Part shown: positions 42,101 through 62,689 of the stretch, piece by piece
Layout: every line of letters starts with the position of its first letter
Numbering within the stretch: position 1 is the stretch's first letter
Assembly (NCBI GenBank): GCA_027310565.1
Contig: DAIDAP010000001.1
Coordinates: forward strand, 1-64,000
DNA length: 64,000 nucleotides
Direction: 5' to 3'
Origin: Chloroflexota bacterium
Lineage (GTDB): Bacteria; Chloroflexota; Limnocylindria; P2-11E
Notes under the pieces: generated by a model
What the model was told of the DNA's origin: nothing
Seen by the model: the letters and a program-made list of their open reading frames with translations, nothing else
Database searches by the model: none
Translations under genes and position numbers: made by a program

Positions 42101-42318
42101 CCGGTCCGGAGATCGTGAGCGCGGTGAAGTGCGCCGGCGGACCCGACATCGGGACGCTCCAGGGCGTGGACGTTTCGAACCAGTCCCCACCCGGCGTGGG
42201 GCACGTGATCTCGGTCCGCGTCTTCGGCTCGGCCGCGAACGCTGACGTGCGCGCCGACGACCTGCTGCGCTCGTGCCTGGGCCTGCGCTCGACGATGGTG
42301 CGGCTGGCGCCGTTCTAG
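39193..42318 (+). CDS. SpoIID/LytB-domain cell-wall protein with five Ig-like repeats
   Basis: Secreted 1,041-residue protein. The GTG start is chosen because it is followed at once by a signal peptide (basic MRLSSR, hydrophobic core, cleavage after ALA near residue 27). Five Ig-like repeats of about 118 residues follow (about 36-625), each with 'PVNLAYHWYD', 'WDG.RT.L', 'PG.YTLRF' and 'EGVAWF'. The SpoIID/LytB part begins with 'GSGFGHGVGLSQYGA' (about 632-650), then 'VGYDDYTRGVVPLEMP' (about 818-835, including the family's conserved Glu) and 'TYFSSSSGGYT'. SpoIID-type enzymes are lytic transglycosylases acting on denuded glycan; LytB relatives stimulate amidases. The GHG motif precedes the core, opposite to classical SpoIID. 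An amidase with the same Ig repeats lies directly downstream. Confidence 0.88.
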   Translation: MRLSSRTALPVAALLTAMVLSSTALAAPLSILLAQYEVPTPPVTAAASATMQVAVRVTNVGTEPWNASGASPVNLAYHWYDAAGAVVVFDGERTPLGADVGLGAQRAVTANVVAPAAPGQYTLRFALVKEGVAWFPPSAAYPVTIVSATYIAGYQVVTPPTQIPAGTSATVRVALANTSNQTWTAGGTNPVNLAYHWYDAAGKPVVYDGARSRLPSDVAPGGAAAVDATVVAPDAPGTYTLRFALVKEGVAWFVPSDPYPVTAQAAFMAAFSAPALPAFVAGGTYAIDVPVRNAGASAWTAGGANPITLGYHWLDGAGRTVVWDGERTRLAADVAPNAQVTIPARVTAPSAPGTYTLVLDMVREGVAWFERLGSTPLRAPAAVAEVRYAAGFSLPTALTGYWAERKTVQVTVVNTGNITWSATGATPFNLAYHLYDKAGKTLVWDGARTPLGTDLAPGQSRTLPLTFPVPSTSGDYTLAVEMVREGVGWFSQLGGTPAVRIPLAVTSGLSAAYGATTTPGQVTIGATVDLTVVVANTGPRTWPATGDNAVRLSYHVTGQRTGNTYIWDGARGVLPNDVPPNTQVSVPIRVSLPAQTGDYFISWDLVQEGVAWFSQVNVTPKKEPFTVVPGVVFYGSGFGHGVGLSQYGAQGLATGVAGPPLTGEQIIARYFPGTAFQFTDAARPVNRVLLSQPSSQTRYRCGDNSFFDDTNADVISDGGFRVLDETAGNAEIGRAAPGQKWLFLAKAGGILEARSFNGTTETLVRSIQTSGSKGFAVIPLTSAPLRLVQKDSIRGEPGLYRGELHVTSLGGRARVVNWVGYDDYTRGVVPLEMPSTWNAEAIKAQAYAARSYAYASYRGPSSDYDVGDDQADQCYGGVRVEKATSNAAVDATKGRVVTYDGAVVKTYFSSSSGGYTLAWGCWGNNVVRSGSSWVCSPAAERPYYAAVPDPADRAVQSPPNPRASWQVTFTGPEIVSAVKCAGGPDIGTLQGVDVSNQSPPGVGHVISVRVFGSAANADVRADDLLRSCLGLRSTMVRLAPF

Positions 42319-42742: not shown

Positions 42743-45700
42743 TTGGGCCGACGCCACGCGCGCCTGCGCCTCGTCCTGCTCATCGGCGCGTTCGTGCTCG
42801 CCCTCCTGCCGAACCTCGGCACGCCCGCGGTCGCCACCCCCCGGTTCTCCGGCCAGATCGTCGGCAAGGACGTCACCCAGGCCTGGCCGGCGCGTGACGG
42901 ACGCGGGCTCTCGACCCCGATCGCGGAGCCCGTCGGCCTCGACGCCGGCTCCACCGGCGGCGGCACCCTCCTGTACACCTCGGACACGATCGACGCGGGC
43001 CAGCTCTTCGGCCGGCTCGCCGTCCACTGGATCCCCGCGCGCGGGCAGCAGGACGCGCTGTTCATCGAGGCGCGCGCCTCCGCCGACGGACGCTCGTGGG
43101 GCCCGTGGACGGGGGTGACCGAGGACGAGGACATGTTCGACCCGGACACGGGCGAGCGCTTCGGCGCGCCGTTCGAGGTGAGCGCGTCGCGGTACGCGCA
43201 GTACCGCGTCTGGCTCACGGGCGGCGACCCCGGCGCGCTCGCGCGCGTCTCGCTCACGTTCATCGACGTGAGCGACCTGAACGCGGGTCCGATCGCGCGG
43301 CTCTTCAACGACCTCCGCGGCGCGTTCGCCGACGTGTTCGATCCGCCGGCGGCGAGCGCGGCGAGCTCGGTGCGGATCCTCACGCGGCAGGACTGGGGCG
43401 CGGACGAGTCGAAGATGCAGTGGCCGCCGCGCTACGAGCCCGCGAGCAAGTTCATCGTGCACCAGACCGCGACGAGCGACGGCGGGAACGACACGGCCGC
43501 GGCGATCCGCTCGATCTACTACTACCACGCGGTCACCCGAGGCTGGGGCGACATCGGCTACAACTACCTCGTCGACAAGAACGGGAACATCTGGACCGGT
43601 CGACAGGGCGGCGACAACGTCGTCGGCGGCCACGCCTACGGATGGAACAACGGCACGATCGGGGTCGCCGGCATCGGCGACTACAGCCGCGTGGCGCCGA
43701 CCGCGGCGATGATGCAGGCCTACGCGAAGATCATCGCGATCAAGGGGACCCAGCTCGGCATCCAGCCGCTCGGCAACGACACCTTCACGCACCAGGAGCA
43801 GGCCTCGGACGGTACGTGGGTGAAGGTCACCGGCAACCCGCCGAACGTCATCGGGCACAGCGACGCCAACTACATCGTCGGCCAGAACGGCGGCCAGACC
43901 GCGGACCCCGGTGTCATCTACCCGCTGCTCCCCTCGCTGCGCCTGGCGGCGCAGACCTACGTGAACGAGGGCTACGTGGACATGCCGTACCTCGAGCCGC
44001 AGCTGCCCCGGGCGGCGTTCCCCGGCGCGGTCCTCCAGGTCCCGGTCGCCGTGATCAACAAGGGCCGGACGGCGATCCCCGCCGGGACGCTCGTGTCCTA
44101 CCAGATGCTGCGGAACGGGACCGTCGCGCTCGCGCAGGGCGCGGTGCAGCCGCTGCCCGCGCCGGTGAACCCCGGACAGTCCGCGACCGTCACGGTCCCC
44201 TTCGCCGTCCCGGCCCTCGGCGTATACGTCGTGCGCTGGGACCTCCAGACGAACGGGCAGTGGTGGAACGCGCTGAAGAGCGCGCCGGTCCGCGAGTTGT
44301 CGTTCAACTCGGCGGACTGGAGCGTCGAGTGGGTGCGGGACGACGCCAAGAGCGTCTGGACCGCGGGCGAGACCAAGCAGGTCACCGTGACCCTCGCCAA
44401 CGACGGCGGACGTCCGTGGCCGAACGCGGCGACGGACCCCACCGGCGCGGTGCGTCTCGGCTACAAGTGGGTCTCGAGCTCGACGGGGAACACGTTCCCG
44501 GGCGCGCAGCGCTTCGACCTGCCGGCGACGGTGCAGCCCGGCGAGCGGGTGACGCTCACCGTCCCGATCGGCGCGCCCGTGTATCCGACGAACTACACGC
44601 TGTACCTCGACCTGTACAAGGGCGCCGAGTTCGCCTTCTCCGAGCGCGGCATCGCGCCCGACGAGCTGGCGATCGGCGTCAACGTCGACTTCAACGCGAC
44701 GTACCAGTTCGGCGCGGTGCCGCGGTTCGCCGCCGGCGCCGCGGCGACCGTCCCCGTGACGATCAAGAACACCGGCCTGGGCACGCTGCCGGTCACCTCG
44801 TCGTACCCGGTCGACCTCGCCTACCACTGGTACACGCCGACCGGCACGCCCGTCGTGTGGGACGGCCTGCGCACGAAGCTCCCGGCCGACCTGCTCTCGG
44901 GCCAGTCCGTGCAGCTCCAGGCCACGGTGCAGGCCCCGCCGCAGGGCGGCCAGTACGAGCTGCGCTTCGACCTGGTGCAGGAGGGCGTCGCCTGGTTCAG
45001 CCAGAAGGGGCTCGCGACGGGGACGATCGCGACGACCGTCGCCGCGCCGGTCATCCCCTCGTACGGCGCGTCGTACCAGGCCGCGCCGCCCCCGACCGCC
45101 GCCGCCGGCGCGACGGTGACGGTGCCGGTGACGGTCGCGAACGCGAGCAACTTCGCGTGGAGCTCGAGCGGCGAGAAGCCGGTGAACCTCGCCTACCACT
45201 TCTACGACAGCGCGGGCAGGCTCGTGCTGTGGGACGGCGCGCGCACGAAGCTCCCGGCCGACGTCGGACCCGGCGCGTCGGCGACGGTGCAGGCGGCGGT
45301 GCTGTTCCCCACGACCGTCGGCACCTACACGCTGCGCTTCGACCTGGTGCAGGAGGGCGTCGCCTGGTTCAGCCAGAAGGGCGTCGCGACCGGCAACGTC
45401 ACGGCGACCGTCGGCGCGCCGCCGCCGACGAGCGGCTACGACGCGACGTACGGGATCTCGCAGGTGCCGACCGCGATGTCCGCCGGCCTGCGCGCCACCG
45501 TCCCGGTGACGCTGCGCAACACCTCGACGTTCGCCTGGACGCCGGCCTCCACCAACCCGGTGAACCTCGCGTACCACTGGTACGACGCCGCCGGGAAGGT
45601 CGTGGTGTGGGACGGCCTGCGCACGCCGCTCTCGATCGCGGCCGGCGCGACCGCGCTCGTGAACGCGCAGGTGCAGGCGCCCGCGTCGCCGGGGACCTAC

Positions 45701-46150
45701 GTCCTGCGCTTCGACCTGGTGCAGGAGGGCATCACCTGGTTCAGCAGCAAGGGCGTGACGAACGGCGCGACGACGGTCGCGGTGAACGTCGCTCCGTACG
45801 GCGCGTCGTTCACCAGCGCGCCGGTGAGCGTCGGCGCGGCGCCCGGCGGCGTCGTGCTGGTCCCGCTCACGATCAAGAACACCGGCTCGCTCGTCTGGGA
45901 CGTGAGCAAGGGCTTCGACGTCGCGTACCACATCGTCAGCGCGTCCGGCGCCGTGAAGGTGTGGGACGGGCTGCGCACCGCGCTCCCGGCGAGCGTGCCC
46001 CCGGGTCAATCGGCGACACTGAACGCGGTGGTGCGCGCGCCCGAGACCGCGGGCCCGTACGTCATCCAGTTCGAGGTCGTGCAGGAGGGCGTCACCTGGT
46101 TCAGCGGGAAGAGCGTGCCGACGGGCGACGTGGCCCTCGACGTGCGCTAG
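42743..46150 (+). CDS. Secreted PGRP/amidase-2 N-acetylmuramoyl-L-alanine amidase with Ig-like repeats
   Basis: About 1,135 residues. I place the start at TTG 42743 because it follows purine-rich GGAGGAAGAAGGGGG and gives a textbook signal peptide (GRRHARLRLV..., cleavage after AVA about residue 31); in-frame GTGs at 42635 and 42668 would only add non-signal sequence. An N-terminal beta domain (about 70-190) is followed by the PGRP/amidase-2 domain (about 210-400) beginning 'ILTRQDWGADES'. Predicted zinc ligands are H240 ('FIVHQTA'), H372 ('IGHSDA') and D388 ('TADPG'), the His-His-Asp set of AmpD-like enzymes rather than His-His-Cys; Tyr in 'GYNYLV' fits the active site. Six Ig-like modules fill the C-terminal 700 residues, four with canonical 'QEG(V/I)(A/T)WFS'. 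It should cleave the lactyl-amide bond between MurNAc and the peptide outside the cell. Confidence 0.88.
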   Translation: MGRRHARLRLVLLIGAFVLALLPNLGTPAVATPRFSGQIVGKDVTQAWPARDGRGLSTPIAEPVGLDAGSTGGGTLLYTSDTIDAGQLFGRLAVHWIPARGQQDALFIEARASADGRSWGPWTGVTEDEDMFDPDTGERFGAPFEVSASRYAQYRVWLTGGDPGALARVSLTFIDVSDLNAGPIARLFNDLRGAFADVFDPPAASAASSVRILTRQDWGADESKMQWPPRYEPASKFIVHQTATSDGGNDTAAAIRSIYYYHAVTRGWGDIGYNYLVDKNGNIWTGRQGGDNVVGGHAYGWNNGTIGVAGIGDYSRVAPTAAMMQAYAKIIAIKGTQLGIQPLGNDTFTHQEQASDGTWVKVTGNPPNVIGHSDANYIVGQNGGQTADPGVIYPLLPSLRLAAQTYVNEGYVDMPYLEPQLPRAAFPGAVLQVPVAVINKGRTAIPAGTLVSYQMLRNGTVALAQGAVQPLPAPVNPGQSATVTVPFAVPALGVYVVRWDLQTNGQWWNALKSAPVRELSFNSADWSVEWVRDDAKSVWTAGETKQVTVTLANDGGRPWPNAATDPTGAVRLGYKWVSSSTGNTFPGAQRFDLPATVQPGERVTLTVPIGAPVYPTNYTLYLDLYKGAEFAFSERGIAPDELAIGVNVDFNATYQFGAVPRFAAGAAATVPVTIKNTGLGTLPVTSSYPVDLAYHWYTPTGTPVVWDGLRTKLPADLLSGQSVQLQATVQAPPQGGQYELRFDLVQEGVAWFSQKGLATGTIATTVAAPVIPSYGASYQAAPPPTAAAGATVTVPVTVANASNFAWSSSGEKPVNLAYHFYDSAGRLVLWDGARTKLPADVGPGASATVQAAVLFPTTVGTYTLRFDLVQEGVAWFSQKGVATGNVTATVGAPPPTSGYDATYGISQVPTAMSAGLRATVPVTLRNTSTFAWTPASTNPVNLAYHWYDAAGKVVVWDGLRTPLSIAAGATALVNAQVQAPASPGTYVLRFDLVQEGITWFSSKGVTNGATTVAVNVAPYGASFTSAPVSVGAAPGGVVLVPLTIKNTGSLVWDVSKGFDVAYHIVSASGAVKVWDGLRTALPASVPPGQSATLNAVVRAPETAGPYVIQFEVVQEGVTWFSGKSVPTGDVALDVR

Positions 46151-46194: not shown

Positions 46195-47265
46195 GTGATC
46201 GTCGGCAGCGCCGTGCCGCCACCGCCCCCGACGTGGGTGTCCGAGACGCCGCTCTCGCAGCCGCGCGCGTACGCGCAGGCGGTGGGGCTGGCGACCGGCG
46301 AGGTGCTGCTCGTCGGCGGCATGGGCCGCGACGACGGCCTCGTCATGCGCACCGAGGCCGAGCTCTTCGACCCGCTCACGCGGCGCTCCGTGCTCGTCGG
46401 CGGCGTGCGCCCCGGCCGCATCTGGCACACCGTCACCACGCTCGCCGACGATCGCGTCCTCGTCGCCGGCGGCGTCGAGCGAGCCGGGGACGGATGGTCG
46501 ACGCTGGGCCTCGCCGAGATCTTCGACCCGTGGACCCGGCGCTGGACGCGCGTCGCCGAGATGCTCCAGCCGCGCTCCGACCACGCCGCGACCCTGCTCA
46601 AGGACGGGCGCGTGCTGGTGGCCGGCGGCCACGTCGGGCCGACGCCGCTGGCGTCGGTCGAGATCTACGATCCCGCCACCGACACCTGGACCGCCGCCGC
46701 GCCGCTGCCGAAGACGCGCTGGAGCTTCTCCATGGCGACGCTCCCGGACGGTCGCGTCCTCGCCGCCGGCGGCTTCATGGATCCGGGGCTCCAGACCGAC
46801 ACCTCGGTGATCTACGACCCCGCGACCGACACGTGGACCGAGGGGCCGCGGCTGTGGTCGGAGCGCGCCAACCACACCACCGTCCTGCTGCCGAGCGGCG
46901 ACGTGCTGCTCGTCGGCGGTCAGCGCGCCGCGGCGAACACCGCCGAGCGCTACGACGCCAGGCTCGGCGCGTTCGTCTTCGCGGGCACGCTGGTGCAGCC
47001 GCGCATGTTCGCGCAGGCGGCGGCGCGACCGGACGGGAGCGTCGTGCTCGTCGGAGGCATCCTGCGGCCCGAGTCGGGCGAGGGCTTCGTGCCGAACGAC
47101 TTCGTGGAGATCTGGGACCCGCGCACGAACCTCTGGAGCGCGTACCAGAGCGCGCCCACCGCACGCGCCGCGGGCGCGGCCGTCGCCGTGGGCAACGGCG
47201 TCTGCATCTTCGGCGGGTCGATCCTCGGCGACGAGCCGATCCGCACGGTGGAGTGCCTCGAGTAG
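46195..47265 (+). CDS. Kelch-repeat beta-propeller protein, membrane-anchored or secreted
   Basis: Seven kelch-type 'V(L/V)(L/V)(V/A)GG' strands (such as 'VLLVGGM', 'VLVAGGH', 'VLAAGGF', 'VCIFGGS'), most preceded by 'YDP.TDTW' and 'R....A..L.DGRVL' motifs, predict a six- or seven-bladed propeller. The first ordinary start in frame is GTG 46195, but it falls inside a hydrophobic helix ('VVAIFLAGVLTGAVIVGSA') whose first half is coded upstream, overlapping the end of the amidase gene. A CTG at 46096 with AGGAGG seven bases before it would supply a basic n-region and the whole helix. So the true start is uncertain and may be non-canonical. Partner and ligand are unknown. Stop is TAG 47263-47265. 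Confidence 0.75.
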   Translation: MIVGSAVPPPPPTWVSETPLSQPRAYAQAVGLATGEVLLVGGMGRDDGLVMRTEAELFDPLTRRSVLVGGVRPGRIWHTVTTLADDRVLVAGGVERAGDGWSTLGLAEIFDPWTRRWTRVAEMLQPRSDHAATLLKDGRVLVAGGHVGPTPLASVEIYDPATDTWTAAAPLPKTRWSFSMATLPDGRVLAAGGFMDPGLQTDTSVIYDPATDTWTEGPRLWSERANHTTVLLPSGDVLLVGGQRAAANTAERYDARLGAFVFAGTLVQPRMFAQAAARPDGSVVLVGGILRPESGEGFVPNDFVEIWDPRTNLWSAYQSAPTARAAGAAVAVGNGVCIFGGSILGDEPIRTVECLE

Positions 47266-50061: not shown

Positions 50062-51912
50062 ATGCGCGGCACGGCGCGTGCAGCCCTCGCGCGCATGCGC
50101 AGACCGATCCTCGCCGCCGCCGCCGTGGTGCTCGCCATCGTGCTCTCGCCGCTCACGCTGCCCGCACCCGTGCGGGCGGCGGTCTGCCCGCCGTTCACCG
50201 GGCCCGCGCCGCGCGCCGGCCTCCCCACCGACACGGTCTACCTGCCCAACGTCACCAAGACGCTCGGCGGCCCGAGCGGCTGGGTGACCCCGTTCATCGT
50301 GCAGAACGTCGCGTCGGCCGGCGCGACCGACCTCGAGCTCAGCTTCTACCGCTTCGCCGACGGCTGCCTCATCGCGCGCCGCACCGTGAGCGGGCTCCAG
50401 CCGTTCCGCTCGTACGCCGACGTCCCGAACAACGACGCGGACCTGCCGGGCGACACGCAGTTCTCGGTCGTCGTGCGCTCCTTCGGCACCGGCGTCGTCG
50501 CGGTGGTGAACCAGGTCCAGGGCGGCGGCGCGTCGTTCCAGGGCCTCGCGTACACCGGCAGCGCCGCCGGCGCCACGAGGGTGTACCTGCCGAACGTGAC
50601 CCGGCGCTTCTTCGGCTACGACGTGCCGTTCATCGTCCAGAACCTCGGCGCCGCGACCGCGACCGCGAGCGTCTCGTTCGTCTCGTTCGACGGCACGATC
50701 CGCTACACGACGAGCGTCACCGCGGAGCCGGGGCAGAGCGCGGTCGTCGATCCGAACTTCCTGCCCGCGTACAGCGGCCAGGCGGGCTCGGGGCTCGCCG
50801 ACGGCACGCAGTACGCGGTCACGATCACGAGCGACCGGCCGGTCGCGGTCGTCGCGAACGCGCACAACGAGACCGGCGCACCGGTCGGCTACAGCCACAA
50901 CGGCCTCTCCTCCGGCGGGCCGACGCTCTACGCGCCCTACGCCGCGAAGAACGCCGACGGCGTGGGGCGCTTCAGCCCGGTCGTCGTGCAGAACCTGGGG
51001 TCGTCGGCGGTGGACCCGACGCTCACCTTCACGCCGTACCCGGCGGCCGCCGGTCCGGGGTACTCGCGCTCGCTCGGCAGCGACGACCCCTGCCCCGCGT
51101 TCAGCGGCGCGCGCTGCTACACGTTCACGGTCACCAGCGGCGGCGCGCCGCTCGAGGGTGTCTGCGTCGTCATCGCCTCGACGACGCCGGGCGGGTGCCC
51201 CGAGCCGCACTACGCGACCGACGCGAGCGGCGTCGTGAAGATCGGCACGCTCGCCGCGCCCGGCGACTTCTGGTTCCTCTACCCCGGCAAGACGATGATC
51301 GGTCCGATCCGCGAGAGCGTGAGCGGCTCCTACGCGGTGTCCTTCCCCGCGCCGGCCGAGCAGAGCTTCAGCCTCGGCCCGATCGCCGCCGGCGCCTCCC
51401 GGGCGTTCGACCCGCGCTTCACGCTCGGCACGACGACGCCCTGCAGCGGCGCGTCCGCGACGTGCCTGGGCGACGGCGTGTTCTCGCTGCGGGCGAGCGC
51501 GCCCGGCGGGCAGATCGCGATGGTCGTCCTCCCGGTGAGCGGCGCGACCGCCGCGGCCTACACCGCGGCCGCGGCGACCGCCGGCCGCGTGTTCCTGCCG
51601 AACGTCACCCGCACGCTCGGCGGCGCGAGCGGGTACTCGACGCCCATCTACCTCCAGAGCACCGGCGCCGCGACGGCGGCGACGCTCACCTGGTACCGCT
51701 TCAGCGACGGGCAGGTCGCGGCGCAGCAGACCGTGGCGCTCCCGGCGGGCGGCGGCGCGAAGGTGGACCCGCGCACCGTCGCCGGGCTCGCCGAGAACGC
51801 GCAGTACGCGGTCGTCGCCGTCGGCACGGGCGGCGACATCGCCGCGATCGTGTTCGAGCAGGCCTTCACCGGCGGCGACGCCGCGTTCATCTACGAGGGC
51901 TTCGCTCGGTAG
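50062..51912 (+). CDS. Secreted repeat protein, paralog of the gene at 48286, with an inserted domain
   Basis: 616 residues starting at the ATG fused to the previous stop. Signal peptide: ARAALARMRRP basic region, hydrophobic core, cleavage after VRA about residue 39. The modules are those of the upstream paralog in the same order ('YLPNVTKTLGG', 'YLPNVTRRFFGYDV', 'YAPYAAKNADGVG', 'FLPNVTRTLGGASGY'). The N-terminal regulatory-like domain is absent. Instead about 100 residues (roughly 330-425, near 51049-51345) interrupt the third module between 'LTFTP' and 'LGPIAAGASRAF'; this insert ('DDPCPAFSGARCYTFTV', 'GVCVVIAS', 'FLYPGKT') is the domain of the lipoprotein at 52575. So it is a nested domain insertion. 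Function unknown; likely extracellular. Confidence 0.82.
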   Translation: MRGTARAALARMRRPILAAAAVVLAIVLSPLTLPAPVRAAVCPPFTGPAPRAGLPTDTVYLPNVTKTLGGPSGWVTPFIVQNVASAGATDLELSFYRFADGCLIARRTVSGLQPFRSYADVPNNDADLPGDTQFSVVVRSFGTGVVAVVNQVQGGGASFQGLAYTGSAAGATRVYLPNVTRRFFGYDVPFIVQNLGAATATASVSFVSFDGTIRYTTSVTAEPGQSAVVDPNFLPAYSGQAGSGLADGTQYAVTITSDRPVAVVANAHNETGAPVGYSHNGLSSGGPTLYAPYAAKNADGVGRFSPVVVQNLGSSAVDPTLTFTPYPAAAGPGYSRSLGSDDPCPAFSGARCYTFTVTSGGAPLEGVCVVIASTTPGGCPEPHYATDASGVVKIGTLAAPGDFWFLYPGKTMIGPIRESVSGSYAVSFPAPAEQSFSLGPIAAGASRAFDPRFTLGTTTPCSGASATCLGDGVFSLRASAPGGQIAMVVLPVSGATAAAYTAAAATAGRVFLPNVTRTLGGASGYSTPIYLQSTGAATAATLTWYRFSDGQVAAQQTVALPAGGGAKVDPRTVAGLAENAQYAVVAVGTGGDIAAIVFEQAFTGGDAAFIYEGFAR

Positions 51913-51997: not shown

Positions 51998-52246
51998 ATG
52001 CCCGCCAAGAATCCGCGCGTCAACGTCGTCCTGGAGCGCCCGCTGTACGACGCGCTCGGCCGCATCGCGCGCCGCGACGGATCGTCCCTCTCGACGAAGG
52101 CGCGTGATCTCCTTCGGGAGGCGATCGAGACCTACGAGGACCTCGGCTTGGCGCGTATCGCCGAGGAGCGCGGCGCCACGTGGGACGACGGGAAGTCGAC
52201 GCACGACGAGGTCTGGGCGGGCCGGCGGCGCGCACAGCGCCGCTGA
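51998..52246 (+). CDS. Ribbon-helix-helix-type antitoxin
   Basis: 82 residues. The N-terminal 'NPRVNVVLERPLYDALGRIA' strand and helix, followed by 'GSSLSTKARDLLREAIETYED', fits an RHH DNA-binding domain. The C-terminal charged tail ('ERGATWDDGKSTHDEVW') would wrap the toxin. The stop TGA abuts the toxin's ATG, a typical coupled toxin-antitoxin arrangement. It would be expected to repress its own promoter, where the extended -10 lies. Confidence 0.85.
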   Translation: MPAKNPRVNVVLERPLYDALGRIARRDGSSLSTKARDLLREAIETYEDLGLARIAEERGATWDDGKSTHDEVWAGRRRAQRR

Positions 52247-52531
52247 ATGGCGTTCGGCCTCCGCTATCACCCCCGCGTGCTCAGCCACGATGTGCCGCGC
52301 ATCCCGAGCGCGATGCGGGAGCGCGTCGGGCGTGGGATCGACGCGAAGCTCAGGTCTGATCCAGCCGCGTACGGCGTCCCCCTCCGCGGCACGCTGCTCG
52401 GGTATCGGAAGCTCCGCGTCGGCGACTACCGCGTCGTGTTCGAGATCGTCGGCGACACCGTACGCATCCTCGCCGTCGCGCATCGCAAGGACGTCTACGC
52501 CCTTCCGCGAGGCGAGATGATCCCGAACTGA
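52247..52531 (+). CDS. RelE/ParE-superfamily toxin
   Basis: 94 residues. The C-terminal 'GYRKLRVGDYRVVFEI' plus 'VRILAVAHRKDVY' is the signature core of RelE-like toxins (conserved Arg, Tyr, Arg and His-Arg). The N-terminal half ('YHPRVLSHDVPRIPSAMRERV...IDAKLRSDP') fits the helical hairpin. RelE members cleave mRNA on the ribosome; ParE members act on gyrase, and sequence alone does not separate them here. It follows the antitoxin with TGAATG coupling. Confidence 0.88.
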   Translation: MAFGLRYHPRVLSHDVPRIPSAMRERVGRGIDAKLRSDPAAYGVPLRGTLLGYRKLRVGDYRVVFEIVGDTVRILAVAHRKDVYALPRGEMIPN

Positions 52532-52574: not shown

Positions 52575-53231
52575 ATGCGTTCCGGAGAGCTATCCCGTCT
52601 GATCCGCGCCGTCGCCGTGACGGTCGTGGCGTCCACCGTGCTGACCGCGTGCGGTGCGTCCCCCGAATCAGTCTTCATTCCTACGCTGCTTCCTGACCGG
52701 GTCCCCGCCACCACCTCCGCGACGCCGTCACCGACGCCGACCGCGACACGGAGCGCCGCGGCCTTGCCGGCCGTGACGGCGTCGCCGACCGCGGCCGCGA
52801 CTACCGCCGCAGCGACGACCGCCCCACCGACGCGCACCGCCACGCCGACGCGCACCGCCGCGCCGACGACGGCCCCGCCGACGACGGCCCCGCCCACGCC
52901 GAGCCCGACGCAGGCGACGGGCGGCTACCCGGCGTCGCTGCCGAACGACAACCCCTGCCCGGCGTTCACCGGCGCGAACTGCTACACGTTCGTCGTGACC
53001 AACGCCGCGGGCGCCCCGCTGCAGGGCGTGTGCGTCGTCGCCGGCGCGAGCAGCACCGATCCCTCGGCGGTCGGCTGCCCCAAAGCGCACTACGGCACCG
53101 ACGCGACCGGGACCGCCAAGATCGGCACGCTCGGCGGGACCGCCGCGACGTTCTTCTTCCTCTATCCCGGCAAGACGACGCTGAAGCTCGACGTCGCCGG
53201 ATCGGGCACGCGCGGCGTGCAGATGCCCTGA
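52575..53231 (+). CDS. Lipoprotein with Thr/Ala/Pro linker and a Cys-paired regulatory-like domain
   Basis: 218 residues. The signal sequence ends in a strong lipobox 'VLTAC' (Cys about residue 26). A Thr/Ala/Pro-rich extended linker (about 40-115) spans the wall. The C-terminal domain of about 95 residues ('NDNPCPAFTGANCYTFVV', 'APLQGVCVV', 'GTDATGTAKIGTL', 'FFLYPGKT') has the look of a carboxypeptidase-regulatory-type beta-sandwich with four cysteines. The same domain sits nested inside the protein at 50062. No catalytic residues are evident; it is probably a surface-displayed binding or assembly protein. Confidence 0.8.
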   Translation: MRSGELSRLIRAVAVTVVASTVLTACGASPESVFIPTLLPDRVPATTSATPSPTPTATRSAAALPAVTASPTAAATTAAATTAPPTRTATPTRTAAPTTAPPTTAPPTPSPTQATGGYPASLPNDNPCPAFTGANCYTFVVTNAAGAPLQGVCVVAGASSTDPSAVGCPKAHYGTDATGTAKIGTLGGTAATFFFLYPGKTTLKLDVAGSGTRGVQMP

Positions 53232-53292: not shown

Positions 53293-53916
53293 GTGAGGCA
53301 GATCGGGGCAACAGCGCTGTCCGTCCCGTCGGGGGACCGCGACGTCTCCGCCGCCCTGCCGCGCTACGCGCAGAGCGACCGCCTCCCCGTGGACGCGCAG
53401 CTCGTCGCGCTGGCGCGCGAGGACCGCGACCAGGCGTTCGAGCTGCTCTACAACGCCTACCGCGGCCGCATCTTCACCTTCCTGCTGCGCCTGGCGGGCT
53501 CGGGCGAGACCGCCGACGACCTGGTGCAGGAGACGTTCGTCAAGGCGTACCGCGCGCTCGCCGGCGTCCCCGACGAGCAGCGGCTGCTCCCGTGGCTGTA
53601 CCGCATCGCGAACAACACCGCGATCGACCACGTCCGCCGCCGCCGGCGCTTCACCTGGCTCCCCTGGGTCGCCGTGAGCGGCACCTCCGACGAGCCGTCC
53701 GCCGCCGACGCCCAGGCCGCCACGTCGCTGCGTGCCGACCTCGCCGAGGTCCTGCGGACGCTGCCGCCGCAGAACGCCGCCGCCCTGCTCCTCCACGCCC
53801 TCGAGGGCTACACCTACGAGGAGATCGCGAAGATCCAGGGCTGCACCATGGCCGCCGCCCGCAGCCGCATCGCCCGGGCCCGGGCGGCCTTCCGGGAGCG
53901 CTACCCGGCGGAGTAG
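53293..53916 (+). CDS. ECF-type RNA polymerase sigma factor
   Basis: 207 residues. Region 2 is seen at about 45-120: 'AFELLYNAYRGRIFTFLLRL', 'ADDLVQETFVKAYRAL' and 'LLPWLYRIANNTAIDHVRRRRR'. Region 4 is at about 150-200: 'LRTLPPQNAAALLLHALEGYTYEEIAKI' and 'ARSRIARARAAFRERY' (recognition helix). There is no region 3, as expected for ECF sigmas. The first 35 residues are extra and unstructured-looking. The next gene, 43 bases downstream, encodes a two-zinc-finger membrane protein, the usual anti-sigma partner. It would direct polymerase to stress- or surface-related promoters when released. Confidence 0.92.
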   Translation: MRQIGATALSVPSGDRDVSAALPRYAQSDRLPVDAQLVALAREDRDQAFELLYNAYRGRIFTFLLRLAGSGETADDLVQETFVKAYRALAGVPDEQRLLPWLYRIANNTAIDHVRRRRRFTWLPWVAVSGTSDEPSAADAQAATSLRADLAEVLRTLPPQNAAALLLHALEGYTYEEIAKIQGCTMAAARSRIARARAAFRERYPAE

Positions 53917-53959
53917 CCCGGGAGCGACAAAGAGCGCCCGCCGCTCGTCCTAGGCGGTA

Positions 53960-56422
53960 GTGGGAAGGCGCTGCCCGTCATTCGACGTCCTCTCGGCCTA
54001 CCGCGACGGGGAGACCGGCGCCGCCGAGACCGCCCTCGTCGCCCGCCACCTCCCGGGCTGCGCCGAGTGCCAGGCCGCTCTGGCCGGCTTCGACCGCCTG
54101 GCGGCGGCCCTCCAGAGCACCCCGCTGGTCTCCTGTGCGGCCGCCAGGCCGCTCCTCTCGGCCGAGCTGGACCGCGAGGCCGGACCCGCCGAGCAGGCCG
54201 TCGCGGCCCGCCACGCCTCCGGCTGCGCCGACTGCGCGGGCGCCGTTGCCGGCTGGCGCCGGCTCGACGCCGCCCTGGCCGCGCTGCCCGAGGCGTTCCC
54301 GTCGCCCGCGGCCGACGCCCGCATCCGGGCCCTCGCCCACCGCCGGCGCGCAGCGCTCCCGACCTTCCGCGGCGCGCTCGGCGGCCTCGCCGCCGCGGTC
54401 GCTTTGGTCGCGGTCGTCGTCGCGGGCGCCCTCTCCGGCGGCGCTGGCCCGCGGCTTGCGGCCGGTCCGAACGGTGGCCAGACGATCGTGGCGTCGGTGG
54501 CGCAGCAGGTGTACAACCCCGCGACCGGATTCCTCTACGTGCTGCGGCCCGCACCGACGGCCGCGGTCGTCGTGCGCGACGTCGGCCGGCAGGTGGACCT
54601 CAAGACCATCGCGCTCGGCGGCCAGCCCGCGTTCATGGCGCTCAGCAGGGACGCGAAGGCGCTCTACGTCGTCGACCCGGTCGCGCGCCAGTACGTGGAC
54701 ATCGACACCGACCGCAACGAGATCCGCGACCGGGTGCCGATGAACGTGAGCGGGACGCCGACGAGCATCGCGGTGGACGCGCAGACCGGGAACATCGTCG
54801 TCGCGACGCGGCAGAGCTCCCCCGCTCCCGCGGGGAGCGCGGCGCCCGCGCCGCGGACCGAGATCGCCGTCATCGACCCCGCCTCGAAGCGGCTCCAGAC
54901 GGTGAAGACGATCGAGGTCGCGGCGACGCGCATCGTCGTCGACGCCGCCGCGGGCCGTCTCTTCCTGCTCGGCCCCACGAGCGTGAGCGTCGTGGACGCG
55001 AACACGTACAAGGAGATCGACTCGATCCCGCGCGGCGCCGTCTCGGTCGCCGCGAGCGCCACCGGCGGCGCGAGCGCGATCCTCTCGGAGCGGGGGGGCG
55101 ACGCCGTGCTCTCCTTCTACCGGGGGGCCGGCGAGGCGACGTTCGCCGGCACGCCGGTGAACGTCTTCGCGCTCGCCGACGGCGGCTTCGCCGTGGTCGT
55201 CGACGACCCGGCCGGCGGGGGCATCACGCTCGTCGATCCCGACGGCGACGCGCGCGGTCCGGCGTTCGCGCTGTCGGGCGGCGCCGCGCAGCTCAGCTTC
55301 GATCCCTCGTCCGGCCGCTTCATCGCCGCCAGCGGCGCGACCGTCGCGACGGTCTCGGGCGCGCTCATCTCCGCCGCGGCGACCCCGGTGCCGACGGAGG
55401 CGCCGGTCAGCGCGCCGCCCAGCACCCCGCCCTCCGCGCCGGCGACCGCGTCGCCCAGCGCCGCGCCCGCGACCGCGTCGCCGCCGGCGAGCGGGCCGCT
55501 CGTCGTGCTCCCGACGCCGGCGCCGTCGCTCTTCCCGGGCGCCGTGCTCTCGGCGGTCGGCCTGTATCGCTTCGACGTCCCGACGGGCATCGCGACGGTC
55601 GCGATGACCACCGATCCGGCCGGGCAGGTGTGGGCGGCCGGCGCCGACGGGACGATCCGCACGATCGACCCGAGCACGGGTGCGATCGCCACGGTCATCA
55701 GGCTGGGGAGCGTCGATCTCAAGCTGCTCACGGTCACCGGCGATCGGGTCTTCGCGCTCGATCGCACCGGCCGGCTCCTCGTGTACGACCTGCTCGCGCG
55801 GCGGCTGAACGGAGCGGTCGTGCCGTTCGGGCGCACGGTCGCGTCGATGTCCACGGCGCCCGACGGCCGGCTGTGGCTCGTCGCGAGCGAGTACGCCGGG
55901 TTGCTCGCGTACGACCCGCGGACGACGCAGTTCTCGATCGTCTATCTCGAGCCGTCCGCGCGACCGGGCTCGGTGAGCGTCGACCTCGCGGGACGCGTGT
56001 GGTTCTTCGATAGCACCCGCGGGGCGCTGGCGTCGTACGAGCCGAGCACGCAGCAGCTCTCGTACCTCGACCTCGCGTCGGACGAGCGCGTGGTGGCGCT
56101 TGCGGCCGACGCCCGCGCGGGGGTGTGGCTGGGGACGGATGCCGGACACATCTATCGCGTGAGCCGAGGCTCGCTCGAGCTCGTCCGCCGCGTCGACGGC
56201 AGCGCCACGCAGCAGGGCCGGATCGTGGGGTTCGTGCCGTCGGCATCCGGCGGCGTGGTGGTCCTCATCGACGCGGGTGAGTCCACGCTCGTCGGGCCTC
56301 CCGGCTCCCGGCTCACCGTGACCTCGGGTGCCGCGGCATCGATCACCGCCGACGGCTACGGACGCACCTGGGTGGCCGATCCCACCCGTCCGGTCCTCTA
56401 CATCGCGGAGGGAGCGCGATGA
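53960..56422 (+). CDS. Transmembrane anti-sigma factor fused to extracellular beta-propellers
   Basis: 820 residues. Two tandem zf-HC2-type modules: C5/H30/C34/C37 ('RHLPGCAEC') and C59/H85/C89/C92 ('RHASGCADC'). One transmembrane helix follows ('LGGLAAAVALVAVVVAGAL', about 135-157). Outside lies a YVTN-like propeller (about 170-470: 'QVYNPATGFLYVL', 'SIAVDAQTGNIVVAT'), an Ala/Ser/Pro linker (about 475-530), and a second propeller of virginiamycin-B-lyase/SMP-30 look (about 540-818: 'TDPAGQVWAAGADGTIRTIDP', 'DLAGRVWFFD', 'ADGYGRTWVADP'). The cytoplasmic fingers should hold the ECF sigma factor; the propellers could sense an extracellular ligand or wall state. Start GTG 53960 has no clear ribosome site, so translational coupling with the sigma gene is likely. 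Confidence 0.88.
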   Translation: MGRRCPSFDVLSAYRDGETGAAETALVARHLPGCAECQAALAGFDRLAAALQSTPLVSCAAARPLLSAELDREAGPAEQAVAARHASGCADCAGAVAGWRRLDAALAALPEAFPSPAADARIRALAHRRRAALPTFRGALGGLAAAVALVAVVVAGALSGGAGPRLAAGPNGGQTIVASVAQQVYNPATGFLYVLRPAPTAAVVVRDVGRQVDLKTIALGGQPAFMALSRDAKALYVVDPVARQYVDIDTDRNEIRDRVPMNVSGTPTSIAVDAQTGNIVVATRQSSPAPAGSAAPAPRTEIAVIDPASKRLQTVKTIEVAATRIVVDAAAGRLFLLGPTSVSVVDANTYKEIDSIPRGAVSVAASATGGASAILSERGGDAVLSFYRGAGEATFAGTPVNVFALADGGFAVVVDDPAGGGITLVDPDGDARGPAFALSGGAAQLSFDPSSGRFIAASGATVATVSGALISAAATPVPTEAPVSAPPSTPPSAPATASPSAAPATASPPASGPLVVLPTPAPSLFPGAVLSAVGLYRFDVPTGIATVAMTTDPAGQVWAAGADGTIRTIDPSTGAIATVIRLGSVDLKLLTVTGDRVFALDRTGRLLVYDLLARRLNGAVVPFGRTVASMSTAPDGRLWLVASEYAGLLAYDPRTTQFSIVYLEPSARPGSVSVDLAGRVWFFDSTRGALASYEPSTQQLSYLDLASDERVVALAADARAGVWLGTDAGHIYRVSRGSLELVRRVDGSATQQGRIVGFVPSASGGVVVLIDAGESTLVGPPGSRLTVTSGAAASITADGYGRTWVADPTRPVLYIAEGAR

Positions 56423-56467
56423 CCGACGAGACAACCTCGCTCCCTCGTTCGTTCCTCTTGCTGGATG

Positions 56468-56488
56468 CGCCTGTTCGGAGCACAGGCG
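56468..56488 (+). terminator. 7-bp stem-loop after the anti-sigma gene
   Basis: CGCCTGT (56468-56474) and ACAGGCG (56482-56488) pair perfectly around a seven-base loop, 45 bases after the stop. No U tract. It may be a terminator or a leader structure. Confidence 0.4.
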
Positions 56489-56514
56489 TGTTCATGGACG
56501 CCGGGCCGGCCGTT

Positions 56515-56539
56515 GTGTCAAAAGCGAACACCCTGACAC
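56515..56539. promoter_or_regulatory. GTGTCA/TGACAC inverted repeat upstream of the surface-layer-like gene
   Basis: Perfect 6-bp arms at 56515-56520 and 56534-56539 flank a 13-base A-rich spacer. The site lies about 90 bases before the TTG start at 56631, in the 208-bp gap that must carry that gene's promoter. A candidate regulator-binding dyad. Confidence 0.4.
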
Positions 56540-56630
56540 GCGGACGGCCATCTCCGCGACCACCGTGACCTCGCGTCGCGACCCCCGCGACCCTCGCGTC
56601 CCCCACAACATACGAAGAAAGGACAGGCAA

Positions 56631-58958
56631 TTGCGAGTAACCAAGATCCTCAGCACCAGCGTCACCGCGGCCGCGCTCGCGTTCAGCATGCTCGCGAGCG
56701 CGATCCCGGCGAACGCCGCCTCTGGTTACCACGCCGCGTGGGTGGCCCAGTCCGCCTACGCCTCGGCATCCCCGGGCCAGGTGGTCCAGATGTCGGCCGT
56801 GTACCAGAACACCGGCGACTCACCCTGGATCAAGGGCACCGCGGGCCAGCAGGCCAACTTCGGCGCTGGCTCGGCCAAGGACCCGGCCTACCCGCGTGAC
56901 ACGACCGCCTACGCCAACGCCGGCTGGAACTCGGGCCAGAGCTGGCTCTCGTCCAACCGCTTCGCGGCGCAGGCGAACGACCTCGTCGCGACGAGCCAGC
57001 TCGGCTCCTGGGTGTGGAGCGTGCGGGTCCCGTCGACGCAGCCCACCGGCGACGTCCTCTTCAACGGCACCCCGGTCGTGGACGGCAAGAACTGGATGGA
57101 GGACTACGGCTTCTTCCTCAAGGTCACCGTCACCGCCGGCCAGGTGCTCATCACGAGCACCAGCCCGACGAGCCCCAGCGTGAGCGGCAACCCTGTCGCC
57201 AGCGGCACCGGCGCGGGCAACGCCTGCACCGTCGCCCTCTGGGACGAGACCGCCCAGGTCGGCTCCTCGACCTCGGACGCAAGCGGGAACTTCTCGGTCG
57301 CGTCCACGACGACCCTCGCCGAGGGCACGCACACGCTGAGCGCGACGTCGACCTGCTCCGACGGTCTTCGTGCGTCCGGCAACGCCGTGACCTACGTGCG
57401 CGACGTCACCAAGCCGACGATCTCCTCGGTCAGCGCCCCCAACGCGGGCACGGTGAACGTCGTCTTCAACGAGAAGGTCGACGAGACCACCGCCGAGACG
57501 ACCGGCAACTACACGATCAGCGGCGGCGTCGTGGTCGCCAGCGCGACGCTCGGCGCCGACGGCGCGACCGTCAGCCTGGGCGTCACCGGCATGACCAGCC
57601 CGGGTGGCTACACCCTCGACGTCACGGCCGTGAAGGACCTGGCCGGCAACGTCATGGCGAATGCCACCGTTCCGTTCACCATCAACGACACCACCGGCCC
57701 GGCGATCTCGAGCGTGGAGAACACCGGCTCGACGACGATCACGGTCGCGTGGAACGAGCCCGTCACGTGCGCCGGCACGTACGCGGTGAACAGCATCACC
57801 GCGACCGGCGTCGCGCCCGGTGCGGCGGCGAACGAGTGCGACATGACCACGCAGAGCCTGACCACCGGCACGACGTACACCCTCAATGCGACCAACGAGC
57901 TTGACAACGCGGGCAACGCGCAGAGCCCCAACCCGGCATCGCGTACCTTCACCGCCGCGGCGCTGGCGGCGACCATCTCCGCGCAGAGCGCGTCGTCGAC
58001 CGAGGTCGGCGGTAGCGTGCTCTTCAGCGGCACGGTCAACGCGGCGCCCACCGGCACCTACTCGGTGCGGACGCCCGACGGCACGCCGATCGGTCTCGGC
58101 GCCCCGGCGCGTAACGCGGACAACAACAAGCAGGTGGACCTCACGTATGGCACCGATGTCTTTGCCACGACCGGCTGCGACGCCACGAACCAGGCCTCGT
58201 GCGTCCTGACCTTCACGGTCCAGGGCGAGACGGGCCCGACTAGCGAGACGCAGTCGCCGCCGTCCGCGATCTTCACGGTCACCGTCACGCGCGACACGAC
58301 CGCTCCGACGCTCGCTCGCGTCGAGCAGCCGTTGAGCACTGACCAGACCACGTTCGACATCGTGTGGTCCGAGAACGTCTCGGGGCCCGCGGCCGTCGAC
58401 GTGAAGATCAAGAGCGGCACGGACATCATCGCGTCCTCGAACGTCGCGGACGCTCCCGCGATCCTGCTGACGGTCAGCGATGGCACCGCCGGCGACAAGA
58501 AGACGCGCATCGTGGCCGCCTCCGCCATCCCGGGCGGCACCTACACGCTCACCGTGGCTGCTTCCCTCGTCACCGACACGTCGCCGCAGGCGAACGCCAA
58601 CGACGCGGGCAGCATCCCGATGACGGTCCTCGACACCACCCGGCCGACACTCGCCAGCGCGACCAACATCGGCGGGTGCACCGGCTCGGGTAGCGACTGC
58701 ATGGTCTGGGACTTCACCTTCAGCGAGCGGATGGCGACATCGGGCTCCGGCTCGGTGCTCGACATCAGCAAGTACAAGCTGAACGGCCTGGCCATCAGCG
58801 GCAGCCTGTCCATCAACGGCGCCGGCACCATCGTCCGGCTCACGCTCACCGCGAGCCCGCCGACCGGGAACAACCAGTTCTCGATCACCGGCGCCACCGA
58901 CAAGGCCGGCAACCTGATCAATCCGAACCCGACGCTCTCGAACTTCACGAACCCGTAG
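56631..58958 (+). CDS. Surface-layer-like secreted protein A (Ig-like/SbsA-like domains)
   Basis: 775 residues. I choose TTG 56631 because GAAAGGA lies seven bases upstream and the protein then opens with a signal peptide (MRVTKILS, hydrophobic core, cleavage after ANA about residue 29). The mature N-terminal domain (about 30-165: 'YHAAWVAQSAYASASPGQVV', 'YQNTGDSPWIKG', 'NRFAAQANDLVATSQLGSW', 'VVDGKNWMEDYGF') is shared with the gene at 60239. Then come a Big-type Ig domain and several SbsA/Big_5-like Ig modules ('DTTAPTL', 'FTINDTTGPAISSV', 'LDTTRPTLASA'). The C-terminal module has 'FTFSERMATSGSGSV' and 'YKLNGLAISG', also shared. Probably an abundant surface-layer or sheath protein. A strong hairpin follows the stop. 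Confidence 0.82.
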   Translation: MRVTKILSTSVTAAALAFSMLASAIPANAASGYHAAWVAQSAYASASPGQVVQMSAVYQNTGDSPWIKGTAGQQANFGAGSAKDPAYPRDTTAYANAGWNSGQSWLSSNRFAAQANDLVATSQLGSWVWSVRVPSTQPTGDVLFNGTPVVDGKNWMEDYGFFLKVTVTAGQVLITSTSPTSPSVSGNPVASGTGAGNACTVALWDETAQVGSSTSDASGNFSVASTTTLAEGTHTLSATSTCSDGLRASGNAVTYVRDVTKPTISSVSAPNAGTVNVVFNEKVDETTAETTGNYTISGGVVVASATLGADGATVSLGVTGMTSPGGYTLDVTAVKDLAGNVMANATVPFTINDTTGPAISSVENTGSTTITVAWNEPVTCAGTYAVNSITATGVAPGAAANECDMTTQSLTTGTTYTLNATNELDNAGNAQSPNPASRTFTAAALAATISAQSASSTEVGGSVLFSGTVNAAPTGTYSVRTPDGTPIGLGAPARNADNNKQVDLTYGTDVFATTGCDATNQASCVLTFTVQGETGPTSETQSPPSAIFTVTVTRDTTAPTLARVEQPLSTDQTTFDIVWSENVSGPAAVDVKIKSGTDIIASSNVADAPAILLTVSDGTAGDKKTRIVAASAIPGGTYTLTVAASLVTDTSPQANANDAGSIPMTVLDTTRPTLASATNIGGCTGSGSDCMVWDFTFSERMATSGSGSVLDISKYKLNGLAISGSLSINGAGTIVRLTLTASPPTGNNQFSITGATDKAGNLINPNPTLSNFTNP

Positions 58959-60238: not shown

Positions 60239-62689
60239 GTGAACCCGATTCGGCTCTCGACGACCGCGACCACCATCGCGACGCTCGCCCTCGCGATGCT
60301 CGCCGGCGCGTTCCCCGCCAGCGCGGCCGCGGGCTTCCATGCGGCATGGGTCGCGCAGAGCGCCTACGCGTCCGCGCAGCCCGGCCAGGTCGTGCAGATG
60401 TCCGCCGTCTACCAGAACACCGGCGACGAGCCCTGGATCAAAGGACAGCTCGGACGCCAGGTCAACTTCGGCGCCGGCAGCACGAAGGACGGGGCGTACC
60501 CGCGCGACACCAGCGCCTACACCGCGTGGAGCACGGGTCAGGGCTGGCTCTCGCCCAACCGCTTCGCCGCGCAGGCCAACGACGTCGTCGCCACGAGCCA
60601 GCTCGGCTCGTGGATCTGGAGCGTTCAGGTGCCAAGCGCGGCGCCCGCCGGCGTCACGCGATTCCACGGGACGCCCGTCGTCGACGGCGTCGCGTGGCTG
60701 GAGGACTACGGGTTCTACCTCGACGTCACCGTGGCGAGCGGTCCGGTCCTCATCACGAGCTTCACACCGCCCTCGCCCTCGGCCGTGACGAACCCGACCG
60801 TCAACGGGACGGGTGCCGGCGCGTCCTGCACCGTGAGCATCTATGAGGGAAGCACGCTGAGGGCCACCGGCACCTCGGACGCCTCGGGGAGCTTCGCGAT
60901 CCAGCTGAGCGCGCTCGCCGTCGGCACGCACGTCCTGTCGGCGAGCGCCGACTGCGCCGGCACCTTCAGGGGATCCGGCAACAGCGTCGGCTACGTGGTG
61001 CTGAGCGGTCCGCCGGCCGGCGCGGCCACCGCCTCCAACACGCGCGAGATCGTCTTCAACTTCGGACAGTGCGTGGACAGCACGAGCGCGACGAACCCCG
61101 CCAACTACGCGATCAGCGGCGGCGTCGCGATCCAAAGCATCGCGATGAACACGGGGAACACCTCCGTCACGATCCTGACCACCTCGCCGATGGCCAATCC
61201 ATCGGGCCATACGATCGACGTGACCGGCGTCCTCGACTGCTCGGGCAATGCCGTCGCGGACCAGTTCGCCACGTTCACCGTCAACGACACGACGCCGCCC
61301 ACGATCGCGCAGGTCATCGCGACCGCGCCCACGGGCGGGACGACGCAGACCGTCACCGTCCGCTGGTCCGAGCCGATCGGCACGGCCGGCTCGCCGGGCT
61401 CCTGCGTCGGGTCGTACGCGGTGGACGGCATCACGGCCACACCGGCCGGCCACACCGACGCGACCGCGACCGGCCAGCGCGAGTGCGTGCTGACCACCGG
61501 TCAGCCCCTCTCCGTCTCCACCGCGCACACGCTCACGGTCGGCGTCGAATCCGACCAGGGCGGGACCCAGCAGGCCACCAACCCGCTGTCGGCGTCGTTC
61601 ACGGTGGGGGTCACGCCGACGATCAAGCTGCTGAGCGCGGTCGCGAGCGGCGAGAGCGCCATCACGCTCAACTGGAACGTCGCCGTCGATCCGACGACCG
61701 GCTCCGCGACCTGCCAGACCCCCGACGCGTCGTTCCTCGCCACCTGCACCCTGGGCGCGCCGATGAGCGGCTCGTCCACGCAGCAGGACGTCACGATCTC
61801 GACGCCGCCGTTCGGCGCGAACGGCTGCGCGGCGACCTCCTGCGTCATCACCGTGACGGTCAGCGGCGTCACCGATCCGACGGCGACGCTCGTGATGTCG
61901 CCGGCCTCGCAGCTGAAGACCGCCACGGTCCTGAGGGACACCGTCGCGCCGAGCCTCAGCACGGCGGCCCAGGTCGGGACGGGACAGAACACGTTCGACC
62001 TCACCTGGTCGGAGCGGGTGAGCGCTCCGCTGGCGTGCGTCGCCGCGGGCACGTGCGCCATCCGCATCTACAGCGGCGCGATCTCGGCGGCGAACATCAA
62101 GGCGTCGACGATCCCGAACGAGAACGCGGGCGTCTCGCTCACGATCAGCGCGTGCGACGGCGTGGCCGGCGACAGGCTCACGCGGCTCACGCTGCAGCCG
62201 AACGGCACGGCCTACGCGCCCTGCGCCGCAGCCGGTGCCGCGCTGCGCGGCGCGAGCTACACGCTGACGACGGCCGCGGCCGTCGTGCAGGACCTCGCCG
62301 GAACGCCGAACGCGAGCGTCGCCGGCAGCCGTGGGCTCGCGGTGACGGACACCACCCGTCCGACCGTGATCATCGGATCGAGCGGCCCCGCCGCCGGTCA
62401 GTGCGGCGCGACCCAGCCGTGCAGGGTCTTCACCATCACCTTCAGTGAGCGGATGGCGGACTCGGGCAGCGGGTCGGTCACCTCGACCGCCAACTACCGG
62501 TTGAACGGCCTCGCCGTGACCGGCATCGCGTCGATCGACGGGACGGGCACCGTCGTCACGCTGACGCTGAGCGCCGATGCGCCGGGCGGGTCGAACCAGA
62601 TCGCGGTCCTCAACGTGCGCGACGCGAGCAGTCAGGCGAACCTGCTGAGTCCGACCCAGGTGAACATCAACTTCACGCGTACCCCGTAG
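60239..62689 (+). CDS. Surface-layer-like secreted protein B, paralog of the gene at 56631
   Basis: 816 residues. GTG 60239 is preceded by AAGGAGGAG five bases upstream, the strongest ribosome site in the window. The signal peptide is cleaved after ASA about residue 29. The N-terminal domain (about 31-165: 'FHAAWVAQSAYASAQPGQVV', 'YQNTGDEPWIKG', 'NRFAAQANDVVATSQLGSW', 'VVDGVAWLEDYGF') and C-terminal module ('FTITFSERMADSGSGSV', 'YRLNGLAVTG') closely match protein A, while the central Ig-like modules (with more cysteine pairs) are diverged. This pattern fits two surface-layer subunits sharing assembly ends. It is separated from the preceding lipoprotein by 77 bases and followed by a strong hairpin. 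Confidence 0.83.
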   Translation: MNPIRLSTTATTIATLALAMLAGAFPASAAAGFHAAWVAQSAYASAQPGQVVQMSAVYQNTGDEPWIKGQLGRQVNFGAGSTKDGAYPRDTSAYTAWSTGQGWLSPNRFAAQANDVVATSQLGSWIWSVQVPSAAPAGVTRFHGTPVVDGVAWLEDYGFYLDVTVASGPVLITSFTPPSPSAVTNPTVNGTGAGASCTVSIYEGSTLRATGTSDASGSFAIQLSALAVGTHVLSASADCAGTFRGSGNSVGYVVLSGPPAGAATASNTREIVFNFGQCVDSTSATNPANYAISGGVAIQSIAMNTGNTSVTILTTSPMANPSGHTIDVTGVLDCSGNAVADQFATFTVNDTTPPTIAQVIATAPTGGTTQTVTVRWSEPIGTAGSPGSCVGSYAVDGITATPAGHTDATATGQRECVLTTGQPLSVSTAHTLTVGVESDQGGTQQATNPLSASFTVGVTPTIKLLSAVASGESAITLNWNVAVDPTTGSATCQTPDASFLATCTLGAPMSGSSTQQDVTISTPPFGANGCAATSCVITVTVSGVTDPTATLVMSPASQLKTATVLRDTVAPSLSTAAQVGTGQNTFDLTWSERVSAPLACVAAGTCAIRIYSGAISAANIKASTIPNENAGVSLTISACDGVAGDRLTRLTLQPNGTAYAPCAAAGAALRGASYTLTTAAAVVQDLAGTPNASVAGSRGLAVTDTTRPTVIIGSSGPAAGQCGATQPCRVFTITFSERMADSGSGSVTSTANYRLNGLAVTGIASIDGTGTVVTLTLSADAPGGSNQIAVLNVRDASSQANLLSPTQVNINFTRTP

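Follow-up and report, generated by a model that had tools for sequence, protein, structure and literature searches.

The question raised by this locus is which genes a bacterium might control through an ECF sigma factor whose anti-sigma partner carries two propellers outside the membrane, and what such an external part might monitor. The locus lies in a 64,000-nucleotide stretch of Chloroflexota DNA (hereafter, the window), which belongs to a 239-kb contig of a 2.79-Mb genome (97.5% complete, 1.2% contamination). Taking together domain architecture, conserved gene order and candidate promoters assigned by position and conservation, we favor, at a probability of about 70%, the reading that these genes specify an ECF sigma/anti-sigma switch that is anchored in the membrane and dedicated to a cassette of surface proteins. 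As an ECF/class I anti-sigma system, it combines tandem anti-sigma domains with two propellers and a well-defined candidate promoter.

The sigma factor and its tandem zinc-domain partner

An initial annotation of the window had recognized a sigma/anti-sigma gene pair, and this is borne out, coordinates included, by the open reading frames and their Pfam domains. The first gene (53293..53916, + strand, GTG start) codes for a 207-aa ECF sigma factor, recognized through Pfam and NCBIfam profiles, its orthologues and their alignment. Its product, at about 200 aa, is composed of sigma2 (aa 52-119; Sigma70_r2, E=3.7e-19) and sigma4 (aa 149-199; Sigma70_r4_2, E=8.5e-15) alone, as befits a member of the ECF group, and scores 90.7 bits against the NCBIfam sigma70-ECF superfamily model (cut-off 42.9). 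Region 4 displays strong conservation across the orthologues in the alignment.

The second gene (53960..56422, + strand, GTG start) codes for an 820-aa protein, whose architecture we delineated using Pfam, alignment and an AF2 model. The two zinc fingers attributed to it are indeed present, as two separate zf-HC2 matches scoring 30.2 and 27.7 bits in a genome search (curated cut-off 22.2). The zf-HC2 domain was matched in seven reading frames of the window genome, and two copies were found only in this protein. Domain 1 (aa 5-52; 53972..54115, + strand) has the ligands C5, H30, C34 and C37 and retrieves ChrR and DdvA in profile searches; domain 2 (aa 58-112; 54131..54295, + strand) has the ligands C59, H85, C89 and C92 and retrieves RsiW. 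Each is a helical domain in which the Hx3Cx2C motif is preceded by a fourth ligand, so that the class I zinc signature occurs twice in one protein, and the gene stands beside its ECF sigma gene in the window and in its relatives. Among nine aligned sequences, seven ligands never vary; the eighth, the first ligand of finger 1, is Cys or His in those orthologues in which it is present. The two domains are followed by a single membrane helix with an Arg-rich N-terminal side (aa 139-157; 54374..54430, + strand), for which hydropathy (approximately residues 136-160) and the AF2 helix (139-157) agree, as the annotation had anticipated. The paired zf-HC2 domains probably form the sigma-holding part of the protein, on the inner side of the membrane.

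This architecture admits a different reading: the pair might serve envelope-stress or redox responses in general and lie beside surface genes by chance, with the zinc fingers rather than the propellers acting as the sensor. Zinc anti-sigma domains can sense redox state, finger 1 resembles ChrR, and every cysteine of the protein is a zinc ligand, with no further cysteines in any of the six full or near-full-length anti-sigma sequences. However, among class I anti-sigma factors that are membrane-bound, about 48% have the zinc motif, and a structural role has been suggested for it in some of these (PMC7406223). Further evidence presented below, from gene linkage and the distribution of candidate promoters, leads us to consider this reading unlikely.

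Two distinct propellers outside the membrane

The AF2 model of the anti-sigma factor, built on eight sequences (mean pLDDT 73), places 27 strands in aa 183-466 and 29 in aa 528-817, which points to two approximately seven-bladed propellers, and its top PDB matches in Foldseek are tandem-propeller proteins. Propeller 1 (aa 183-466; 54506..55357, + strand) is of the YVTN/surface-layer-protein type according to AF2, Foldseek and profile searches; its best match is the YVTN surface-layer protein 1l0q, with E=1e-17 for the whole profile and the best stretch falling within this propeller. Propeller 2 (aa 528-817; 55541..56410, + strand) is of the NHL/PknD/Reg_prop type, with profile matches to PknD, the PknD-derived Pizza designs and hybrid two-component sensors. 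The proposal of two different propellers is thus upheld by both the predicted fold and the divergent sequence affinities (1l0q versus PknD). They are connected by a Pro/Ala/Ser/Thr linker of about 60 aa, predicted by AF2 to be disordered (aa 467-527; 55358..55540, + strand). The initial annotation had portrayed this linker as spanning the wall: it does join the two propellers, but propeller 1 itself is separated from the membrane by only about 25 residues.

A comparison of the ligand pocket with that of virginiamycin B lyase (Vgb) had also been proposed. Vgb uses a His for catalysis. We found a Pfam Vgb_lyase score of 15.7 bits against a cut-off of 50, and propeller 2, with a single His in the window copy, lacks any conserved His column across the orthologues. 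Lyase chemistry is therefore unsupported, and a Vgb-like pocket was rejected. More broadly, one might imagine that the external part is an enzyme, of the virginiamycin B lyase or the lactonase/SMP-30-like kind, whose action on a compound signals the presence of that compound. The weak Pfam matches to SGL and Vgb_lyase speak for such an enzyme, against which stand the depth of the Vgb_lyase score below its cut-off, the His pattern of propeller 2 and the nature of the top-scoring sequence matches, which are sensor and surface propellers with no enzymatic function; we regard it as very improbable.

A conserved surface-protein cassette with a sporadic distribution

In relatives, the sigma and anti-sigma genes are embedded in a recurring order of genes for surface proteins and wall enzymes that holds across genera. 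It begins with genes for a SpoIID/FW protein (in the window, SpoIID + N_BRCA1_IG, 39193..42318, + strand, kept upstream in relatives), an Amidase_2/FW protein (Amidase_2 + N_BRCA1_IG, 42743..46150, + strand), a Kelch-propeller protein (46195..47265, + strand), a YLPNVTKTLGG-repeat surface protein (50062..51912, + strand, preceded by a tandem paralogue whose ORF ends at 50061), and small putative lipoproteins, of which the one with a VCVVxG segment lies immediately 5' of the sigma gene in the window (52617..53231, + strand). These are followed by the sigma gene, the anti-sigma gene and a gene for an Ig/FW secreted protein, and in several loci additional surface or membrane genes come next. The window copies and those of a few relatives were analyzed with Pfam, and the remaining relatives were matched by position and by N- and C-terminal sequence. 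The Ig/FW gene, which is the probable target of the sigma factor (56631..58958, + strand), codes for a secreted protein with an N-terminal FW/NBR1-like Ig domain and Ig-like repeats; this FW-like domain was assigned from the alignment by eye, the FW (N_BRCA1_IG) matches in Pfam being confined to the SpoIID and amidase proteins. The AF2 model of the target protein was poor (pLDDT 48) and was left out of the fold search. A paralogue, about 50% identical, is encoded further downstream (60239..62689, + strand).

A search of 61 relatives recovered anti-sigma orthologues, about 33% identical and either full or cut by contig ends, in nine further members of the family, and sigma orthologues in nine relatives at 51-62% identity. 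The relatives identified in a named collection are all Chloroflexi MAGs, at least one of them from groundwater. Neither orthologue was found in the four genus-mates of the window genome, which evidently live without the system, an observation that favors the redox or envelope-stress reading introduced above. In two genomes the available sequence contains the sigma gene without the anti-sigma gene: in G013 (L072) it directly precedes the surface gene, and in G010 (L071) it is followed by a gene for an unrelated membrane or secreted protein. Profile searches covering 177 genomes from the class and a sample of 301 from the phylum recovered the full anti-sigma architecture nowhere else, and a contig-cut N-terminal piece was found in one genome of the same order. 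This patchy occurrence, among MAGs that are incomplete, suggests gain and loss of the cassette. Searches for plasmid copies of the system and for a link to defence systems returned none.

Candidate ECF promoters at two places in the cassette

By comparing gaps across the loci, we detected an ECF-type promoter footprint, GCGACAAA-N13-yCGTCnTA, at two places in the cassette; in its full form it is a 30-base element, nGCGACAAA-N13-yCGTCnTA, and the spacing of its boxes is the same across all 16 sites. This footprint is newly described here. The first site, Pa, lies in the gap between the sigma and anti-sigma genes (GCGACAAA-N13-TCGTCCTA; 53924..53952, + strand), with the anti-sigma GTG 7 nt downstream. 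It is present in nine loci, the window and eight others, in which the anti-sigma start codon falls 5-8 nt past the -10 box; the transcript would therefore be leaderless. Downstream of the gap site comes the anti-sigma gene in all loci but that of G020, whose contig breaks off after 13 nt. The second site, Pb, is strong in six other genomes, where at most a few bases separate it from the anti-sigma stop and about 280-360 nt from the Ig/FW gene that follows. At the homologous place in the window, just past the anti-sigma stop, we observed a degenerate form (CGAGACAA-N14-TCGTTCCT; 56427..56456, + strand).

Using a matrix built without the window genome, Pa ranks first among 127,940 positions at 27.7 bits, with the next position at 16.0, and the window Pb ranks 46th at 8.3 bits, its support coming mainly from its homologous position. 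When each genome was left out in turn, the sites rank first per locus, and also second where both exist, with the exception of the window Pb. In pattern searches of 61 genomes, exact matches to the consensus number five, all of them within the cassette; allowing up to one mismatch yields 38 matches, of which 12 are in the cassette (one in G020), and those beyond it were regarded as chance. Pa is the sole match with 0-1 mismatches in the window genome. As the consensus came from these sites, the genome-wide searches measure specificity, and the leave-one-out ranks constitute the independent part of the evidence.

No footprint precedes the sigma gene, and a sigma-70-like promoter, suspected by eye before this gene in some relatives, was not recovered by a consensus scan of the window. 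Likewise, no clear footprint was seen at the other surface genes of the cassette. The initial annotation had suggested that the external part could control the surrounding surface genes. The conserved genomic linkage and the ECF-type site that six other genomes have ahead of the surface gene are in keeping with this, but the control indicated is narrower, with sites ahead of the anti-sigma gene and of the surface gene that follows it and no clear ones at the others, and with a weak Pb in the window itself.

These sites could instead be recognized by a different regulator or by a sigma factor other than this one, with the anti-sigma gene simply co-transcribed with the sigma gene. The sites are assigned to this sigma factor by position, and G010 and G013 retain the sigma gene with no recognizable footprint near their sigma or surface genes. 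The loss of the footprint where the anti-sigma gene is absent, with linkage of the sigma and surface genes kept in G013, cuts both ways. Against another regulator, the elements have the form of an ECF promoter (two boxes at fixed spacing, a CGTC -10 and a start codon at close range downstream), are nearly exclusive to the neighborhood of this sigma gene, and precede the anti-sigma gene at every gap site but the contig-cut one. We hence judge this attribution to be quite unlikely. The same distribution bears on the redox or envelope-stress reading: the very few genome-wide matches, concentrated in the cassette, are unlike the broad regulon of a stress response, and both the linkage to one set of surface proteins and the two extracytoplasmic propellers are conserved.

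As to the 280-360-nt leader that precedes the Ig/FW gene in six relatives (loci L031, L032, L033, L034, L026 and L039), it contains conserved blocks, among them TGGTACAAA, which resembles an extended -10, and GGGAGGTGA, which has no start codon at the usual spacing, along with a CCCCGG/CCGGGG hairpin in most. The leader has no Rfam match, and folding of its alignment yields one modest hairpin with few compensatory changes. In the window the leader is shorter (56423-56630), and most of the blocks of the relatives are missing. Separately, a weaker match to the footprint (12.4 bits), which may be due to chance, occurs at 42634-42663 of the window, about 80 nt before the Amidase_2/FW gene.

A proposed regulatory circuit

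Under the favored reading, that of a switch dedicated to the surface cassette, the zinc domains would tether the sigma factor to the inner side of the membrane, and the outer propellers would monitor the cell surface by binding a ligand or partner, most likely a surface protein of the cassette, a glycan or a wall fragment. Gain or loss of this contact could then release the sigma factor, through either a conformational change or regulated proteolysis. The free sigma factor would recognize the promoters whose footprints we observed: action at Pa, before the anti-sigma gene, would set up negative feedback on the brake, and action at Pb, before the adjacent Ig/FW gene, would switch on the surface protein. 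The sigma gene itself, having no such site, is presumably expressed at a basal level.

A more elaborate and rather doubtful version envisages an assembly checkpoint, in which the propellers bind the sigma-driven Ig/FW protein or its scaffold, such that the finished layer re-locks the sigma factor, and the paired zinc domains engage it at two sites or as two molecules. We met no description of such two-site or two-molecule binding of a sigma factor by paired zinc domains.

Comparison with known systems

RsbN of Streptomyces is a much smaller protein that lacks a large external sensor. Nevertheless, the sigma-BldN/RsbN pair may be the closest working parallel to the circuit proposed here. In the available part of the published account, the anti-sigma gene lies adjacent to the ECF sigma gene, rsbN has its own BldN-dependent promoter, BldN drives the chaplin/rodlin surface coat, and the anti-sigma factor is more divergent than the sigma factor (PMC4255298); here, footprints occur at both corresponding places in relatives. 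Propellers and paired zinc domains are not mentioned in that part of the account (PMC4255298).

A precedent for an anti-sigma factor with a TolB domain is Tt-TolB of Thermoanaerobacter tengcongensis, which is encoded directly 3' of the gene for the ECF sigma factor Tt-RpoE1, inhibits the sigma factor, binds it through its N-terminal region, and has one membrane helix and a large outer C-terminal region of the TolB type, a propeller family (PMC3397946). It differs in having an N-terminal part of 39 residues and a single TolB region, and Tt-RpoE1 differs in recognizing the promoter of its own gene (PMC3397946). The SigI/RsgI systems of Clostridium thermocellum share the overall layout, with an inner anti-sigma domain, one membrane helix, a trans-wall region, an outer sensor and a connection to surface machinery, but involve the SigI family, the RsgI N-terminal and autocleaving periplasmic domains and carbohydrate-binding sensors (PMC12203970). 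A Pfam search of the anti-sigma factor found none of these RsgI domains or sensors.

The individual zinc domains are akin to those of the class I factors ChrR and RsiW in their Hx3Cx2C motif, helical fold and location beside an ECF sigma gene, and Chloroflexi are rich in class I anti-sigma factors, which accompany 72% of their ECFs (PMC7406223); the difference here is that a single protein carries two such domains, both complete, one after the other. Similarly, the propellers are of the same sequence types as the PknD sensor and the 1l0q surface-layer protein, here joined in a single anti-sigma factor. Our search of the anti-sigma and propeller literature found no description of an anti-sigma factor with two propellers and two zinc domains; because its coverage was partial, the absence of a match does not prove that the arrangement is new.

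The external signal is known for few ECF systems. In these uncultured Chloroflexi, a two-propeller sensor, a sharp candidate promoter and an adjacent surface target come together in one conserved cassette, and hence the steps by which the state of the surface would govern gene expression could be tested with purified parts in a laboratory host. The arrangement suggests a surface-coat circuit resembling that of BldN and RsbN outside Actinobacteria.

Other features of the cassette loci

Upstream of the SpoIID/FW gene, positions 236-39112 of the window form a single open frame of 12,958 codons, a candidate for a giant surface protein with RTX calcium-binding repeats near its end. The two adjoining YLPNVTKTLGG-repeat genes of the window (48273-51912) appear to be a tandem duplication, relatives having mostly one. 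A small ribbon-helix-helix/ParE-like toxin-antitoxin pair is inserted in the window cassette at 51998-52531, and another small pair, toxin-antitoxin-like by appearance, is found in the cassette of a relative (L033, 1701-2335). Finally, downstream of the surface gene in the G006 locus (L031, 13397-13569), we identified a group II intron RNA (RF02001, 106.7 bits).
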